From the IMG/VR virus record IMGVR_UViG_3300047312_000152, positions 1 to 28,530 of that record: a stretch of 28,530 nucleotides of DNA; one strand, given 5' to 3'. A model generated the notes under the pieces. It was not told the DNA's origin and did no database searches. It saw only the letters and a program-made list of their open reading frames with translations. The translations under genes were made by a program, and so were the position numbers. The DNA is from a virus. The first letter of the stretch is position 1. Each line of letters begins with the position of its first letter. Of this stretch, positions 18,597 through 25,585 are shown one piece after another.

Positions 18597-20311
18597 TACT
18601 CGGGTTTCAGGTAGCTGTGGGTGCCGTCCTCCATCTTCGTGCGCTTCCACGCTAGGCGTCGCATGATGGCTGCCATCCGCGACTGGTCGAACTTGGTCCA
18701 CTGGCCGGCGGGTTTGTTCACGGCATGACCGAGGAGCTGGGCGGTCGAGATGACGGTGAGTGGCGTGTACCGCTCCTGCCACGCGCCGTCGTGCTCCTCC
18801 ATCGCGAGATAGCGCCGCACCAGCGGCTCCCAGTCATCGACTTCCTGTCGGTCACTCTGCATCTCGAGCGTTTCCTGCTCTGGCATGTCCCACCAGCCTT
18901 CGCCGCGCTTGAACTCCGCCACGGCCTCGGCGAACAACTGCTCGCGGTCACGCTTCAACCCAGCGATGTCGATGGTGCCGCAGTACACCGGCCAGAACCG
19001 CCGGGCGCCGGTGGGATCTCGGAGGAACGCATCCTCATTCGTGGACCCGACGAACACGTTGCGGCGCGGGTAATCAACCGCCAGGGCACCATAGGGCGTG
19101 CGGTACCGATCCGTCTGGCAGGTAATCACCTGCTTCACCTTGGCGATCTCAGCGCGGGAGAAGGTCTCCATCTCCGCGATCTCGACGAGGAGTTTGCCGT
19201 GCAGCGTCAGGTAGAAATCCTTACTCCCGATCGACTCGTGACCCTCGGCGTACCACGCACCGCCGACGACGGACAAAGCGGTTGACTTCTTGATCCCCTG
19301 CTTGCCCTGCAGGACCAGCACGTTGTCCATCTTGCAGCCAGGGTGGTAGACCCGCGCCACCATCCCGCGGAAGAAGTTCCGGCCGGCCTTCTGGTGGTAG
19401 TCGCTGACCGGCGTGCCGATGTAGCGGGGCAGGAAGTCCAGCAATCGCTCCTGCCCGTCCCACGCCAATGTGTCCATCCACTGTTTCGGCTCGCACCGGA
19501 TGTCCTCGGACGCGATCCGGAGAATCGTTTTCTTGATCGTCAGGTCGGTCATCCCGAACATGCCGCACTTCCGCTGCAGGAACAAGGCGATCGCCACCGG
19601 GTCCACATCGGACAACTCACGGGGAATGATCGTCTGGTCCCCCTGACCAGCACCCCAGGTCGTGAACACCTTGCAGTGGAACTCATCCCACCAGAACCGA
19701 CCAGACGTGAGCGGGTGCTTCTGCAGCGCCCGTTCGCAGTTGTCGACATTCCAGTGGGGGACGCCGCGGCCGTTCAGTTCGAGCCCGAGCTGTTCCCACT
19801 TCATGAACGAGGCGGGAAGGTCGAGGTCCGGTTGCTGCTCCGGCCCCCCCTGTACCAGTGTGATCCCCGGTGGCCGCTCCTTCTTGGGCTTGCGAGGCGG
19901 ACGGGCAGGCTCGGGGTCAGGCGGTGGCGGTGGTGGTGGGGCCTCGGCAACGGTCGGCGCGGGCTCCGGCTCGGCAGGGTGCGTTCCGTTCAACCGCCGT
20001 CGACACCAGGCCACTGTGTCATCCGTCAGCCACCCCTCATCGCGGGCGGACTCCGCATCCCAGCCGCCCGAGTGGTCCGAGACATCCAGCACCCGCAGCC
20101 GTTCAGGGGCTGTCGCCAAGGCCGCCCGTACTCCTTCCCCCCACTCCGGCGCCTCTGGCGTAGCATCCGGCCAGACCAGCACATCAGCGCCCTTGTACGG
20201 TGTCAGGTCCACGCCGCCGCCGATCCAGACTTCGGGCTGATAGAGCGGCAACAGGATACGCGCCGCCTCGGCCGCACGGAGACTCGCGACGAGCAGGAGA
20301 CGGGCCGTCAT
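18593..20311 (-). CDS. VapE-type primase/helicase (virulence-associated E family)
   Basis: 572 aa. A short N-terminal part (1-105) is toprim-like in look (ADVLVWPDA), followed by a Pro-rich linker (about 110-150). The C-terminal ATPase domain has Walker A in LQGKQGIKKST (334-344), Walker B in KLLVEIAEME (373-382), and a sensor region NVFVGSTNEDAFLRD and GARRFWPV (418-442), as in the VapE/SF3-like phage helicases. It probably unwinds DNA at the origin. ATG overlaps the preceding stop; it is the last gene of operon B. Compared with family members (about 400-800 aa) the size is normal. Confidence 0.82.
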   Translation of the reverse strand: MTARLLLVASLRAAEAARILLPLYQPEVWIGGGVDLTPYKGADVLVWPDATPEAPEWGEGVRAALATAPERLRVLDVSDHSGGWDAESARDEGWLTDDTVAWCRRRLNGTHPAEPEPAPTVAEAPPPPPPPDPEPARPPRKPKKERPPGITLVQGGPEQQPDLDLPASFMKWEQLGLELNGRGVPHWNVDNCERALQKHPLTSGRFWWDEFHCKVFTTWGAGQGDQTIIPRELSDVDPVAIALFLQRKCGMFGMTDLTIKKTILRIASEDIRCEPKQWMDTLAWDGQERLLDFLPRYIGTPVSDYHQKAGRNFFRGMVARVYHPGCKMDNVLVLQGKQGIKKSTALSVVGGAWYAEGHESIGSKDFYLTLHGKLLVEIAEMETFSRAEIAKVKQVITCQTDRYRTPYGALAVDYPRRNVFVGSTNEDAFLRDPTGARRFWPVYCGTIDIAGLKRDREQLFAEAVAEFKRGEGWWDMPEQETLEMQSDRQEVDDWEPLVRRYLAMEEHDGAWQERYTPLTVISTAQLLGHAVNKPAGQWTKFDQSRMAAIMRRLAWKRTKMEDGTHSYLKPEY

Positions 20312-20523
20312 GCGGAGACCCGCAATGCGGGACTGCCTGGGCGCGGTCCCTGCTCATGCAACTCCGGCAGCGTCTCGCCATGCCAGACTATGCCGTACCA
20401 CTCGGCCAGTAGGATCGCTTCCTCGGTCCACAGATCGGGCTCGCCCACGACGAGGAGGCGGCCGTCACCACGACGGAAGGCGTAGGGGAGTGGCTGGGGC
20501 GGTGCGGGGACGTGGCGCTTCAT
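20308..20523 (-). CDS. Small hypothetical protein upstream of VapE (71 aa)
   Basis: ATG at 20523 overlaps the preceding stop; the longer open frame is shadow. It contains a short beta/alpha pattern (GRLLVVGEPDLWTEEAILLAEWYG) with a Glu/Leu-rich helix. It lies immediately before the helicase gene and overlaps it. Function unknown. Confidence 0.65.
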   Translation of the reverse strand: MKRHVPAPPQPLPYAFRRGDGRLLVVGEPDLWTEEAILLAEWYGIVWHGETLPELHEQGPRPGSPALRVSA

Positions 20524-20861
20524 CGTGGGGCGGGCCTCGGCTGGGGCCAATGCTCGCCCGAGTAGCCGTTGGGGTAGCAGGAGCGGCGTACGCAGAGCGT
20601 GCGGGGCAACTCGGATGGGGCGGACTCATAGCCTTGCAGTACTGCCAGCATACCAGCCCAACTCACGGCGATCGGAGGGTCCACGATCTCCCAGTCGAAT
20701 CCATCGCGAGGCCACAGGTAGACCAGTCGGCCCCCGTCATCCCGCAGAATCACCTTGCAGATGCACCCGAGGTCCCGCGCGAGCGCCATGCACTCTTCCT
20801 TCACCTTATAGGCGTGGCCTTGATAGGCGGGGTCGGGAAGGACCGCAGGGCGACCGGCCAT
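20520..20861 (-). CDS. First gene of operon B (113 aa)
   Basis: ATG at 20861 with GAGGATT upstream. Small alpha/beta protein: helix QGHAYKVKEECMALARDLG, strands CICKVILRDDGGRLVYLW, then a basic end with two Cys. It is the first product behind the operator-bearing promoter at 20903-20931. Function unknown. Confidence 0.65.
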   Translation of the reverse strand: MAGRPAVLPDPAYQGHAYKVKEECMALARDLGCICKVILRDDGGRLVYLWPRDGFDWEIVDPPIAVSWAGMLAVLQGYESAPSELPRTLCVRRSCYPNGYSGEHWPQPRPAPR

Positions 20862-20890
20862 CGGAATCCTCGGATAATCGCGGAGAAACG

Positions 20891-20915
20891 AAACGGGCGC
20901 CTATCATAGCGCCCG
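20891..20915 (-). terminator. Intrinsic terminator of operon C
   Basis: CGGGCGC and GCGCCCG (20894-20900 with 20909-20915) form a perfect 7-bp stem with an 8-nt loop, followed on the minus strand by TTTCGTTT. It follows the frameshifted spanin-like gene. The loop contains the -10 box of the next operon's promoter, so the same sequence ends one transcript and starts the next. Confidence 0.6.
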
Positions 20916-20933
20916 CGTTACGAACTTGCAATA
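20903..20933 (-). promoter_or_regulatory. Promoter of operon B with repressor operator
   Basis: On the minus strand TTGCAA (20926-20931) and TATGAT (20903-20908, 5 of 6) are 17 nt apart. The operator CGTTAC-N6-GCAATA on the plus strand (20916-20933, followed by CCC) covers the -35 box. This is the same geometry as at the repressor's own promoter (26027-26057). It would control the helicase operon. Confidence 0.7.
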
Positions 20934-20935
20934 CC

Positions 20936-21576
20936 CTAAAAGTTGTACGTAACGCCGATCAACGCCCCCGGACCCGTGCGGACCTGCCCGCCGGATGCAA
21001 CCGCGCCGTAGCCTGCAGCAGCGCCGAGATGGAACCGCGACGGGGAACGACTCTTGGCGATCACAGCCTCGAGGTCGCGATTGACCTGCTCGCTCTGGTT
21101 CAACCGGCCCTCGGCGTCGATCTGGGCCTTGAGACATAGGTTCGCCGTCGCCATCGCGCCCCGCATCGCTTGGAACGCGAGCCCGTTGGCGGTCCGCAGG
21201 CTATCCGCAGGCTATCCGCTTCCCGGCTGCGCTCCTGGTAGGCGTCCCGGAAGTAGGCGGCGGCTGAGTCGTCGGGCGGGACCGGGAATCGGGCGGCGAG
21301 CATGGCAAGCGAATCGGCCTTCGCTTTACTTCGGTTGGCGCCCTGTAAAGCGGCTTCCATATGTGCGGAATCGACACGGAGCCGGTTCTGAAACGCCAGG
21401 ATCGAATCCCGCGCCGCCCGTTGGGATGCCGCAAATCGGGCGCTATCGGCTGCCAGCGCAACGATCCGGGCCTGGGTGGCTGCCGGGACTACCGGCGGCT
21501 TGCCGTGGCCCCAGAGGGCGTAGCCGGCCAGCAGGCCCGCCAGCGCGCCGAGGCCCAACCAGCCGGGAACCGTCAC
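20936..21576 (-). pseudogene. Spanin-like protein split by an 11-bp tandem duplication
   Basis: Two frames cover this stretch: 21576 down to 21100 and a second frame ending at 20936. The 641-nt span loses its frame at 21193-21219, where AGGCTATCCGC is present twice in tandem (21198-21219). Removing one 11-bp copy leaves 630 nt, a single 209-aa frame. The joined protein starts with a GTG (GTGA overlap), has one membrane helix (about 6-22), a long coiled coil, and ends in an outer-membrane-like strand (GVTYNF). That layout suits an inner-membrane spanin or similar envelope protein; the true reading could also be restored by slippage. Confidence 0.75.
21193..21219. repeat. 11-bp tandem duplication causing frameshift
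   Basis: TCCGC is followed by two copies of AGGCTATCCGC (21198-21208 and 21209-21219), giving about 2.5 units. Eleven is not a multiple of three, so copy number switches the reading frame of the spanin-like gene. Confidence 0.9.
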
Positions 21577-22103
21577 GCCTCCCTCGCCGCCGCGCAGAAC
21601 GCGATACTGCCCGCTAGCCGCGACCCCTGATACAGTCCCCATGTCACCCACCCCGGATCGAGGCAGAACACCCACCAGAGCAGCAGTCCGTAACCGAAGC
21701 TGATAGCCAGCGCGAGGCCGAGCGGCGTACCGTAGAGGGTGCGGTAGGCGGTGAGGACGATGGCGAGGTCGGCCGCGGAGACGAGGACCAGGTCGCGGCC
21801 AGTCCACGCACCGAGCCAGACGGCCGCGAGGCTCACGAGGGTCAGGAGTCCGATGACGTTCATAGCCGCCATCAGGGGCAGGAGCGCGTAGGCGATCAGG
21901 CCCGCTTGCGCCAGCGGGTAGAGGTTGCCGATCAGGTCGGGGCTGACCCAGTGGGCGGCGGTATCAGCCACGAAGCTGACGCCGAACGCCGCGGCGAGCA
22001 GCCAGTGGGTCCGTGACCGGGAGCGCCGGACCGCCAGCCAGAGCAGCGGGATCGCGCCGATCCAGTGGGTCAGCTCCCCCACCCACCAGTGCGGGTCCCT
22101 CAC
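21573..22103 (-). CDS. Polytopic membrane protein (176 aa)
   Basis: GTG start at 22103 overlaps the preceding TGA (GTGA); the longer frame is shadow. It has about five or six hydrophobic helices (such as LTHWIGAIPLLWLAV, LLPLMAAMNVIGLLTLVSL, ALAISFGYGLLLWWVF). It is larger than typical holins; it could be a membrane transporter-like, superinfection-exclusion or lysis protein. Position between small membrane genes and the spanin-like gene supports an envelope role. Confidence 0.65.
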   Translation of the reverse strand: MRDPHWWVGELTHWIGAIPLLWLAVRRSRSRTHWLLAAAFGVSFVADTAAHWVSPDLIGNLYPLAQAGLIAYALLPLMAAMNVIGLLTLVSLAAVWLGAWTGRDLVLVSAADLAIVLTAYRTLYGTPLGLALAISFGYGLLLWWVFCLDPGWVTWGLYQGSRLAGSIAFCAAAREA

Positions 22104-22357
22104 GGGCAATCGGTAAAGGGCGGGCAGCGGTGCGAATTGTTGGTGCCGCCGCCGCCATCGAACGCGATCACCACATCCGGCCCCGGCTTCACGATGGCAA
22201 TGATCTGCGCGGGGACGCCGTGCGGCTTGATGTAGAGGGTGGCACCCTCGCCACCAGAAATGAGATCGGCCAGGATGCGGCCGGTTTCCTCGGGGCCGAA
22301 GCCCCAGCAGTGGGGCAGCGGCGGGCCGTGTTCGGACTCCATCATGGGGTCGGTCAT
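22100..22357 (-). CDS. Small hypothetical protein (85 aa)
   Basis: ATG at 22357 overlaps the preceding stop. It starts MTDPMMESEHGPP and contains a strand-rich middle (GATLYIKPHGVPAQIIAIV) followed by DGGGGTNNSHRCPPFTDCP. Two Cys near the end might form a disulphide. No family recognised. Confidence 0.6.
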   Translation of the reverse strand: MTDPMMESEHGPPLPHCWGFGPEETGRILADLISGGEGATLYIKPHGVPAQIIAIVKPGPDVVIAFDGGGGTNNSHRCPPFTDCP

Positions 22358-22602
22358 ATGAAGGTTTCCTCCTCGGGTAGATCCTCAAGGAACCGGGGGA
22401 AGTGCTGCCGTATCTCCTGAATCACCAGCCGCTGCGTGTCGCGGGCCGCGCTGATTTCCTCAAGTAGCCGCTGGTTGCTGGCGCGGGTCAGGTTGTTATC
22501 CGCCTCCCGACGCCGGGTATGGTACTCCTCCAGAAAGATGAGCGCCACGAGGGCCAACCACTGCGCGATGACCAGACCGAACCCAACCTCGTTAGCGACC
22601 AC
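22354..22602 (-). CDS. Small membrane-anchored coiled-coil protein (82 aa)
   Basis: The start is uncertain; GTG at 22602 overlaps the end of the upstream gene and gives VANEVGFGLVIAQWLALVALI, an N-terminal membrane helix (about 6-23), followed by an amphipathic, Arg/Glu-rich coiled coil to the end. This form resembles the membrane-anchored gene pair before it, as in phage lysis cassettes. Function unknown. Confidence 0.55.
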   Translation of the reverse strand: MVANEVGFGLVIAQWLALVALIFLEEYHTRRREADNNLTRASNQRLLEEISAARDTQRLVIQEIRQHFPRFLEDLPEEETFI

Positions 22603-22798
22603 CGCGCCGCTCGAGGGCGTTAAAACGCTCTTCCAGGTGCTCAAATCGTTGGACGAGATCATCGACCTTCCCATCTAGCGCCGCGAGCGCCGAGTCAATA
22701 TGTCCCGCCCAATGAGCGGCCTTGAACACGACGACGCCGATGCCGATCGTCTGGAAGATGATGCCGAGCAGGAGGCCGATTTGCCCGAGGTCCATCAT
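22592..22798 (-). CDS. Small membrane-anchored coiled-coil protein (68 aa)
   Basis: ATG at 22798 overlaps the stop of the DUF5675 gene. Residues about 6-26 (LGLLLGIIFQTIGIGVVVF-type) form a membrane helix; the rest is a coiled coil (KVDDLVQRFEHLEERFNAL). It has the look of a XhlA-like or spanin-like partner protein in lysis cassettes. The exact role is unproven. Confidence 0.6.
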   Translation of the reverse strand: MMDLGQIGLLLGIIFQTIGIGVVVFKAAHWAGHIDSALAALDGKVDDLVQRFEHLEERFNALERRGGR

Positions 22799-23241
22799 GG
22801 CAGCCCCGGCGCCCACGCGATGACCAGCATAGCCTCGTTGTCGTCCTCGAGGTATTCCATGAACCGAGCGTGCGCTTCCTTGCTCCGGAGGACGGCTTGC
22901 TTCACGACTTTGGACGCGCCGGTATCCTCGTCGCGGTCCACCATGATCTCGCCCCGGACGAGCCCGACCAGGATGCAGCCCTCGACGTCTTCCTCGGTAT
23001 TGCCTGAGTGAATCAGGATGCGGGTGCGGCCCGGTACGTCGGTCACCTCGAACGTGGGGAGGTTGTGCTTAAGGAAGATGGTCCGCTTGAGCCAGTACTT
23101 CCCTTCGGGGATGCAGGAGACGCCGGGCGCGTTATCGCGCCAGTCATCCTCAAGAGTAAAGCAGGAGAAGTCGGGCGCGGTGAGCCGGCCGAACGTGCCA
23201 TCGGCGTTCCGCTCCGTGCGGGTCAGGGTCAGCGTTTTCAC
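22795..23241 (-). CDS. DUF5675-family protein, candidate lysis enzyme
   Basis: 148 aa from a GTG overlapping the preceding TGA. Contains FTLEDDWRDN, CIPEGKYWLK and ILIHSGNTEEDVEGCILVG (76-94), the hallmark blocks of the DUF5675 family found in phages. The His (78) and Cys (89) of IH-GN...GC are spaced like the catalytic His/Cys pair of L,D-transpeptidases, so a peptidoglycan role is a reasonable guess, unproven. No ordinary endolysin (lysozyme, amidase, CHAP) occurs in this window, which makes it the best candidate here. Confidence 0.78.
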   Translation of the reverse strand: MKTLTLTRTERNADGTFGRLTAPDFSCFTLEDDWRDNAPGVSCIPEGKYWLKRTIFLKHNLPTFEVTDVPGRTRILIHSGNTEEDVEGCILVGLVRGEIMVDRDEDTGASKVVKQAVLRSKEAHARFMEYLEDDNEAMLVIAWAPGLP

Positions 23242-23534
23242 TCCGGGACCGCCTGATACCCTGCCGGCCAGTCCGCCGCGCGCACAAGCACCACGAGGTC
23301 TGGTGACTCGCGGACGAACCAGTCGCCCTCGACGGCGAGTCCCGTAGTGAGCGTGAGGACGCCGAGTCGGGGCGTCTGTGCCTGAGTCGACATCCCAGCC
23401 TCGTCCACAAAGCACCCTTGCGGCTTGCCGTCTTCGATGCGTCCGACGCCGATCAGTTCACAGAGCGCACTCCAGTTCTCCCACGAGAGCTGCATCGCGG
23501 CCACCGGCTCGCCGTTCTTCGTCCATGCGCTCAT
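23238..23534 (-). CDS. Hypothetical protein (98 aa)
   Basis: ATG at 23534 overlaps the preceding stop. The N-terminus (MSAWTKNGEPVAAMQLSWEN) resembles short phage proteins of unknown role; a Trp/Glu-rich middle follows. No membrane segment. It lies between a small membrane protein gene and the DUF5675 gene, all overlapping by 4 nt. Confidence 0.6.
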   Translation of the reverse strand: MSAWTKNGEPVAAMQLSWENWSALCELIGVGRIEDGKPQGCFVDEAGMSTQAQTPRLGVLTLTTGLAVEGDWFVRESPDLVVLVRAADWPAGYQAVPE

Positions 23535-23800
23535 TTGGTTGGCTGCTCCTCTGGCATTGTCGGATGGTCTCCAGTCATGCGGGCGACCTGCCCCGCCACC
23601 TTGTCAGCGCCAGAATTGACGGCGGCGTGAATGTCGTCCAGTTTCGCAGTCACGTCGGAGTGCTCGACGGCTCGCGCCTGAATCGCCTCATTCTTGTTGG
23701 TATCGAGGCGCTTGAGGATGACGCTGGTGGCCGCCGTAATCGCCGCCGTGACGACGCCCGCAACTGCCGTGGTGATCGCAATGACCGCACCGTCCGTCAT
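23531..23800 (-). CDS. Small membrane protein, holin-like (89 aa)
   Basis: ATG at 23800 with GGAGACCCT upstream. One hydrophobic helix (about 5-24, AVIAITTAVAGVVTAAITAAT) followed by a basic region and an amphipathic helix (LKRLDTNKNEAIQ) and a negatively charged tail. The size and layout resemble small phage membrane proteins in lysis regions. Holin function is possible, not shown. Confidence 0.6.
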   Translation of the reverse strand: MTDGAVIAITTAVAGVVTAAITAATSVILKRLDTNKNEAIQARAVEHSDVTAKLDDIHAAVNSGADKVAGQVARMTGDHPTMPEEQPTK

Positions 23801-23828
23801 AGGGTCTCCGAGGTGGCTAGGGTCCAAG

Positions 23829-24197
23829 TCACAGCGCCCCCACGGCATGATCGACCAGCACGTAGGCGGCTTCGTCCGGCGTCCGCACCACAGCACCGAT
23901 TCCGCCGAGCGACTTCACCATGCCGAGGAAATTGATCTGCTCGATCGAGGAGCGGCCCCGTTGGGACTTCACTTCAAGTGCGGTGAATAGCCCGACTTTC
24001 TTCCCGACCATCTCAGGCGTGATGACCACCGGCGTAATCCCGATCAGGTCACTGCTGCCAGGGCAGAGCCCACAGCGCACTGGCCGGCCGTCCTTGGTGT
24101 AGAACGTCCCGACGTTATTCCGGAACGTCCGAGCCCCAGACGCCGACAGCCGTATCTGGATCGCCTGCATCGCGTCGCGCTCGGGGTGGCCTCTCAC
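23829..24197 (-). CDS. VRR-NUC domain endonuclease
   Basis: 122 aa from a GTG overlapping the helicase stop. The PD-(D/E)xK-like fold of VRR-NUC nucleases shows as CPGSSDLIGI (Asp50), FTALEVKSQRG (Glu75, Lys77) and SIEQINFLGMVKSLGG (Gln87), the standard order. Small standalone VRR-NUC proteins in phages act on branched or structured DNA, often beside a helicase, as here, where its gene overlaps the helicase gene. The active-site residues are intact. Confidence 0.85.
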   Translation of the reverse strand: MRGHPERDAMQAIQIRLSASGARTFRNNVGTFYTKDGRPVRCGLCPGSSDLIGITPVVITPEMVGKKVGLFTALEVKSQRGRSSIEQINFLGMVKSLGGIGAVVRTPDEAAYVLVDHAVGAL

Positions 24198-25585
24198 GCT
24201 GCCCCCGCCATCTTCCGCTCGCGGTGCCGTATGATCGCGTCGGCCCAGGTATCCGGCCGCGCATACCCCCGCTGGCGGGCGAGCTGGATCAGGTCGTCAC
24301 GGGTCCGCGCCTGCCCCTGCTCCCGGCGCCGCTGCTCTTGGACCTGCACGCGATCCAACTCGACCAACTCGCCCTCGGCTTGCTTCACTTCGCGGGGCTG
24401 GGCCACGAACACATGCTGACAGTAGGTGCAGACCGGCGTCCCGCCGCGCATGGCGCCGAAACACTTCGGACAGACGCGGACACCGCGGTTGCCGTCAGCC
24501 GCCTTCTTCCCGTCCGGCCGTCCCTCGAGCGACCACTCGCGCACCTCGTCGGGAAACCCGTGGCGCATCGTGTTCCCGGCGTGGTCGAGGATCAGCGCCT
24601 CGGTCTTGCCAGGCGCCGGCCGCAGGATGCGCCCGCACTGCTGAAGCCACAGGCCCTCGGACTGGGTGGGCCGGAGTGAGATGCCGACTTCGCAGTGCGG
24701 CACATCGAACCCTTCGCTCACGAGGTCGCAGGAAGTGAGCACCTGAATCTCGCGGCGCATGAACGCCGCTATGATCTGACGGCGCACGAGTCGGTCCAGC
24801 GTACCGTCGACGCTGTAGGCCCGGATCCCCGCCGCCTTGAACTGTGTCGCGACATGCTCGGCATGAGCCACGGAGACACAGAACGCGACCGCCGCCTTGC
24901 CGTCCGCATGGCGCTGGTAGTGGGCGACGGCATCCCCGGTCACGGTCGCGGTGTCGGTTACCGCCGTGAGTTCCGACTTGACGAAGTCACCCATCCGAGT
25001 GTGCAGGCCGTCCGTCTGGATTGTCGGAGGCGCGAAGACGCGCACAGGACACAAGGCCCCCAGTCGCACGAGATCCAGCACGGTCGGGCCGAGGATCATC
25101 GTCTCGAAACATTCGATCAGGCCCTCACCTGAGAGTCGGACCGGCGTGGCCGTGACACCCAACACCTTCGCCGCCGAGAAGTACGCCAGCACCTTGCCCC
25201 AAGTTGTCTTCCCGACCGCATGGTGCGCTTCGTCCACCACGATCAGCGTGAACTTCCCGAGTCGGTGCAACCGCTTGACGACGGTGAACACGGAGCCGAC
25301 CTGCACTGCCCGCTCGAAATGCTCGGGATAGCCAGCCGCCACGATCCCGTGCGAGGTGCCGAACGCGGTAAGTGAGGCAGAAATCTGGTCGATCAATTCG
25401 GCGCGGTGGGCCAGGATCAGGACGCGGCCGTTACGGAGCGCGGCATGGTGAGAGATGTAGGAGAAGATGACCGTCTTGCCGGACCCCGTGGGCGCCACCG
25501 TCAGCACCGACCGATAGCTCTTATACTGGGTACGGATGCGGCCCACCAGATCGTTCTGGTAGGGACGGAGAACTGGCGGCGTCAC
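24194..25585 (-). CDS. SF2 DEAH-type DNA helicase with C-terminal zinc ribbon
   Basis: 463 aa from a GTG overlapping the preceding TGA. Motif Q-like RPYQ, Walker A APTGSGKT (31-38), DEAH (118-121), GVTATP (143-148) and the motif VI block QQCGRILRP (315-323) place it with the SSL2/RAD25-like SF2 helicases of phages. Near the C-terminus CPKC (372-375) and CTYC (386-389) form a zinc ribbon. It likely unwinds DNA for replication or recombination; the nuclease encoded next would cut the structures it makes. Confidence 0.9.
   Translation of the reverse strand: MTPPVLRPYQNDLVGRIRTQYKSYRSVLTVAPTGSGKTVIFSYISHHAALRNGRVLILAHRAELIDQISASLTAFGTSHGIVAAGYPEHFERAVQVGSVFTVVKRLHRLGKFTLIVVDEAHHAVGKTTWGKVLAYFSAAKVLGVTATPVRLSGEGLIECFETMILGPTVLDLVRLGALCPVRVFAPPTIQTDGLHTRMGDFVKSELTAVTDTATVTGDAVAHYQRHADGKAAVAFCVSVAHAEHVATQFKAAGIRAYSVDGTLDRLVRRQIIAAFMRREIQVLTSCDLVSEGFDVPHCEVGISLRPTQSEGLWLQQCGRILRPAPGKTEALILDHAGNTMRHGFPDEVREWSLEGRPDGKKAADGNRGVRVCPKCFGAMRGGTPVCTYCQHVFVAQPREVKQAEGELVELDRVQVQEQRRREQGQARTRDDLIQLARQRGYARPDTWADAIIRHRERKMAGAA

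Follow-up and report, generated by a model that had tools for sequence, protein, structure and literature searches.

An 11-bp tandem duplication that probably inactivates a putative membrane-protein gene of a phage

Gene organization around the repeat

The window analysed here, 28,530 bases long, is a linear virus record in its entirety. A gene on its minus strand opens at GTG 21576 and contains the sequence TCCGCAGGCTATCCGCAGGCTATCCGC, the exact content of positions 21193-21219, which is a perfect 27-bp tandem with a period of 11 and 2.45 copies. The frame that starts at the GTG ends at a TGA (21100-21102) after 158 aa, whereas the -1 frame carries the C-terminal part of the gene, down to TAG 20936. 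The features of the locus are as follows.

21573-21576, minus strand: GTGA, in which the start codon of the split gene overlaps the stop codon of the upstream membrane-protein gene; GAGGGAGG lies directly before it (sequence reading)
21100-21576, minus strand: N-terminal part, 158 aa, of which the first 124 are in the original frame, followed by about 34 out-of-frame residues up to the TGA (frames, codon usage and structure model; start backed by the related contig L002)
21212-21214, minus strand: TAG within the duplicated unit, the upstream stop of the C-terminal part's frame (frame reading)
21193-21219, minus strand: perfect tandem duplication inside the gene, 11-bp unit, 2.45 copies (sequence reading and tandem search)
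21193-21197, minus strand: 5-bp word GCGGA (TCCGC on the plus strand), recurring at 21204-21208 and 21215-21219; putative slippage microhomology, a role inferred from the sequence
20936-21166, minus strand: C-terminal part, read in the -1 frame and 76 aa long when counted from its first in-frame ATG; a helix followed by a low-confidence end that finishes in VTYNF (frames, codon usage and structure model)

A Shine-Dalgarno-like sequence is present before GTG 21576; none was found before ATG 21166, ATG 21154 or TTG 21103. The assigned start is sound because L002, a related virus contig with a homologue of the split gene (78% amino acid identity), keeps the start codon and the frame, and does so with the same GTGA overlap despite a different upstream neighbour gene. 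Past the repeat, the GTG frame and the -1 frame both remain open for about 110 bp.

The exact 11-bp tandem had been pointed out in an earlier note made from the sequence alone, and our sequence reading and tandem search agree with it. The 27-bp run is the longest tandem in the window (16 matches) and the only run of at least 14 matches at any period of 8-60. Runs in 40 dinucleotide-preserving shuffles (periods 8-40) reached 14 at the longest, compared with the 16 observed. Shuffled DNA, however, is too lenient a yardstick: in 788 kb of other loci, nearly all from phage contigs, we counted 35 perfect tandems comparable in size (period 7-40, run of at least 14), or about 44 per Mb, so that about 1.3 would be expected in a window of 28,530 bases. 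One such tandem per window is thus ordinary, and the point that needs explanation is that this one breaks a reading frame.

A single gene interrupted by the duplication

With nine other ORFs of the window as training set, codon usage was scored in all three frames on each side of the repeat. The GTG frame is ahead upstream of the repeat (0.144 vs -0.608 and -0.342), and the -1 frame over the 93 bp directly after it (0.392 vs -0.715 and -0.468), although both frames are open in those 93 bp. Because the coding signal switches frame at the repeat, the two parts appear to derive from one ancestral gene. The structure models are in line with this reading: the predicted helix reaches residue 123 at the break and resumes at the second residue past it. 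The proposal of the earlier note that a single gene had been split by the duplication is therefore well supported, by the change of coding frame together with the helix predicted across the break. The 209-aa frame from GTG 21576 to TAG 20936, given there for the gene without one copy, follows from the coordinates; the break, placed near residue 126, actually begins at residue 125, a trivial difference.

Protein architecture and possible role

The N-terminal part has its hydropathy maximum, a moderate 1.52, at residues 5-23, and its structure model contains a transmembrane helix at residues 6-21, predicted there with low confidence, followed by long helices at 32-96 and 103-123. It contains no cysteine, and the C-terminal part contains one. 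The N-terminal membrane helix, supported by this moderate hydropathy and the low-confidence model helix, is a trait of i-spanins of the lambda Rz type (PMC6139136), to which the predicted long helical rod and the single C-terminal cysteine add further likeness. The periplasmic domain of i-spanins consists mainly of coiled-coil helices, and their genes belong to a lysis cassette with endolysin and holin, the lipobox-bearing o-spanin partner being embedded, overlapping or adjacent. The position of the gene is also reminiscent of i-spanins, in that it follows small membrane-protein genes and a DUF5675 gene, which are possible lysis neighbours. The locus differs from i-spanins in that no o-spanin lipobox candidate is found nearby (a simple filter over the three minus-strand frames of 20300-24600, which unusual lipoboxes may escape) and in that family profile searches with the split gene returned no match to a spanin family.

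The u-spanins, typified by T1 gp11, have a lipobox at the N terminus and a membrane helix at the C terminus, and the 58 described in PMC6139136 all lack cysteine in the periplasmic part. The present protein would resemble them in spanning the periplasm as one protein if its C-terminal end lay in the outer membrane; it differs in its N-terminal membrane helix, in the lack of a lipobox and in the cysteine of the C-terminal part. A u-spanin identity was rejected, given the N-terminal location of the membrane helix and the N-terminal part without cysteine.

The C-terminal 50 residues show a weak likeness to DUF6808 (PF20647) with E = 0.0022, but the scores of 18.4 and 17.9 bits lie below Pfam's curated cut-off of 24.4, and membership was not assigned. 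The earlier description of two otherwise intact parts thus stands for the membrane helix and the long helix, on the strength of hydropathy and the model; the outer-membrane-like end is not borne out by the structure model, whose confidence is low there, and its one family match, to DUF6808, is sub-threshold. Likewise, the label 'spanin-like' fits the layout of membrane helix and long helix and is weakened by the missing lipobox partner and family match, so that we keep it by analogy, as a fair architectural guess and a working hypothesis.

Protein scans of viral contigs, bacterial genomes and named phages detected L002 as the only homologue of the N-terminal part and no confident homologue of the C-terminal part. 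A DNA-pattern scan of viral contigs with the junction matched three contigs, only in an unrelated frame. A structure search with the N-terminal model against viral structures gave no match, and the DUF5675 protein produced nothing significant against solved structures.

Origin and consequences of the duplication

On the coding strand, the repeated unit reads GCGGATAGCCT and is followed by GCGGA again. A tandem unit bordered by a short direct repeat is the usual footprint of replication slippage, and a perfect 27-bp tandem with GCGGA at its borders has this anatomy. The ancestral gene would have contained a single unit with two GCGGA words 11 bp apart; between direct words at such spacing, slippage of the nascent strand inserts one more unit, and slippage between the GCGGA words may have added the 11-bp unit seen here. 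The locus thus resembles other short tandem duplications made by replication slippage in its exact unit, its short bordering repeat and its two-and-a-bit copies, with no notable difference, save that the single-copy ancestor is here our inference, the junction being covered by no relative. L002 stops at the ninth base of the repeat unit (L002 6360-6368), and a second related contig, L003, breaks off in an inserted gene, short of the repeat. That the sole close homologue should end inside the same repeat unit is odd, though probably due to chance. Its end was considered as a sign of polymorphism and rejected as such, since the contig stops before one-copy and two-copy versions would part.

Since 11 is not a multiple of 3, ribosomes starting at GTG 21576 would keep to the ancestral frame for 124 residues only and halt after 158 aa. 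The C-terminal part is probably not made, as no ribosome-binding site precedes it and its ATG lies inside the first part. The product is probably an inner-membrane protein that crosses the membrane once and carries a long helical rod; its role would probably be an accessory, i-spanin-like one in lysis, and it would probably be impaired in this copy of the genome. The best reading, and one that we hold to be reasonably probable, is a real slippage duplication, probably inactivating, in a phage membrane-protein gene; the duplication is probably an ordinary, private mutation. Among the three explanations offered in the earlier note, it is recent inactivation that fits best. If this is a plain mutation, its value lies mainly in annotation, where the two ORFs are to be recorded as one split gene.

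The main rival is an assembly or sequencing artefact, the real phage having one copy and an intact gene, which we consider unlikely. Such an error would account for a duplication that breaks a gene seemingly under coding constraint on both sides of the repeat, and the end of L002 inside the repeat might faintly hint at a site awkward to assemble. The adjoining sequence, however, argues for accuracy: over 7.0 kb next to the gene, the window and L003 are 97.4% identical, and each of the four indels between them (21, 15, 6 and 3 bp) has a length divisible by 3, so that without a frameshifting indel in this region poor sequence quality is unlikely. The behaviour of the common methods argues in the same direction. 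To our knowledge, an 11-bp duplication is not something that short-read assembly creates by mistake when k exceeds 16, and the errors of long reads are for the most part indels in homopolymers.

We regard as very improbable a phase switch, in which slippage between copy numbers would toggle the full-length protein on and off. A frame-shifting tandem unit within a coding sequence does have the anatomy of slipped-strand phase variation, but contingency loci usually carry many short units, compared with only 2.45 copies here, and the searches turned up neither a relative nor a variant that differs in copy number, L002 ending in the repeat and L003 before the gene. The titles and abstract openings of the literature naming both spanin and phase variation mention no phase-variable spanin. 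We give very little credence to the idea that the repeat has been retained to switch a lysis protein on and off, by which part of the phage population would make a shortened rod protein and lyse differently; reads with mixed copy numbers would turn the locus into an unusual phage case of varying a lysis-associated gene by slippage.

Two genes that were always separate and overlapping are highly improbable, even though the C-terminal part has its own ATG and its own weak family match. The signal change falls exactly at the repeat, which disfavours two old genes: the coding signal of the C-terminal frame begins there, well ahead of the ATG, and the helix is predicted to be continuous across the break. 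Furthermore, another locus (L005) encodes an uninterrupted, single-frame 220-aa protein of comparable size, with a DUF5675 gene about 1.2 kb upstream of it, the likeness shown being one of layout rather than of sequence. Finally, a programmed -1 frameshift, which could join the two frames in the roughly 110 bp where both are open, or the synthesis of two separate proteins from them, is scarcely credible, as 21098-21230 contains no slippery heptamer of the X XXY YYZ type, the coding signal switches at the repeat and not further down, and the candidate internal starts are not preceded by Shine-Dalgarno-like sequences.

Variation upstream of the split gene

The region upstream of the split gene also varies between the window and its relatives. 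The upstream membrane-protein ORF (21573-22388) is 45 bp shorter at 22014-22032 in the window than in both L002 and L003, through four gaps of 21, 15, 6 and 3 bp that keep the frame. A helicase/DNA-methylase-like gene, encoding 744 aa in L002, separates the split gene from the upstream membrane gene in L002 (3768-6006) and L003 (11712-12042) and is absent from the window (21573-21576); a helicase search yielded 80 loci, none with the split gene. The L002 cassette is flanked on both sides by GCGTGAC, and the window contains a single GCGTGAC, so that a clean gain or loss of the cassette at this microhomology is likely.
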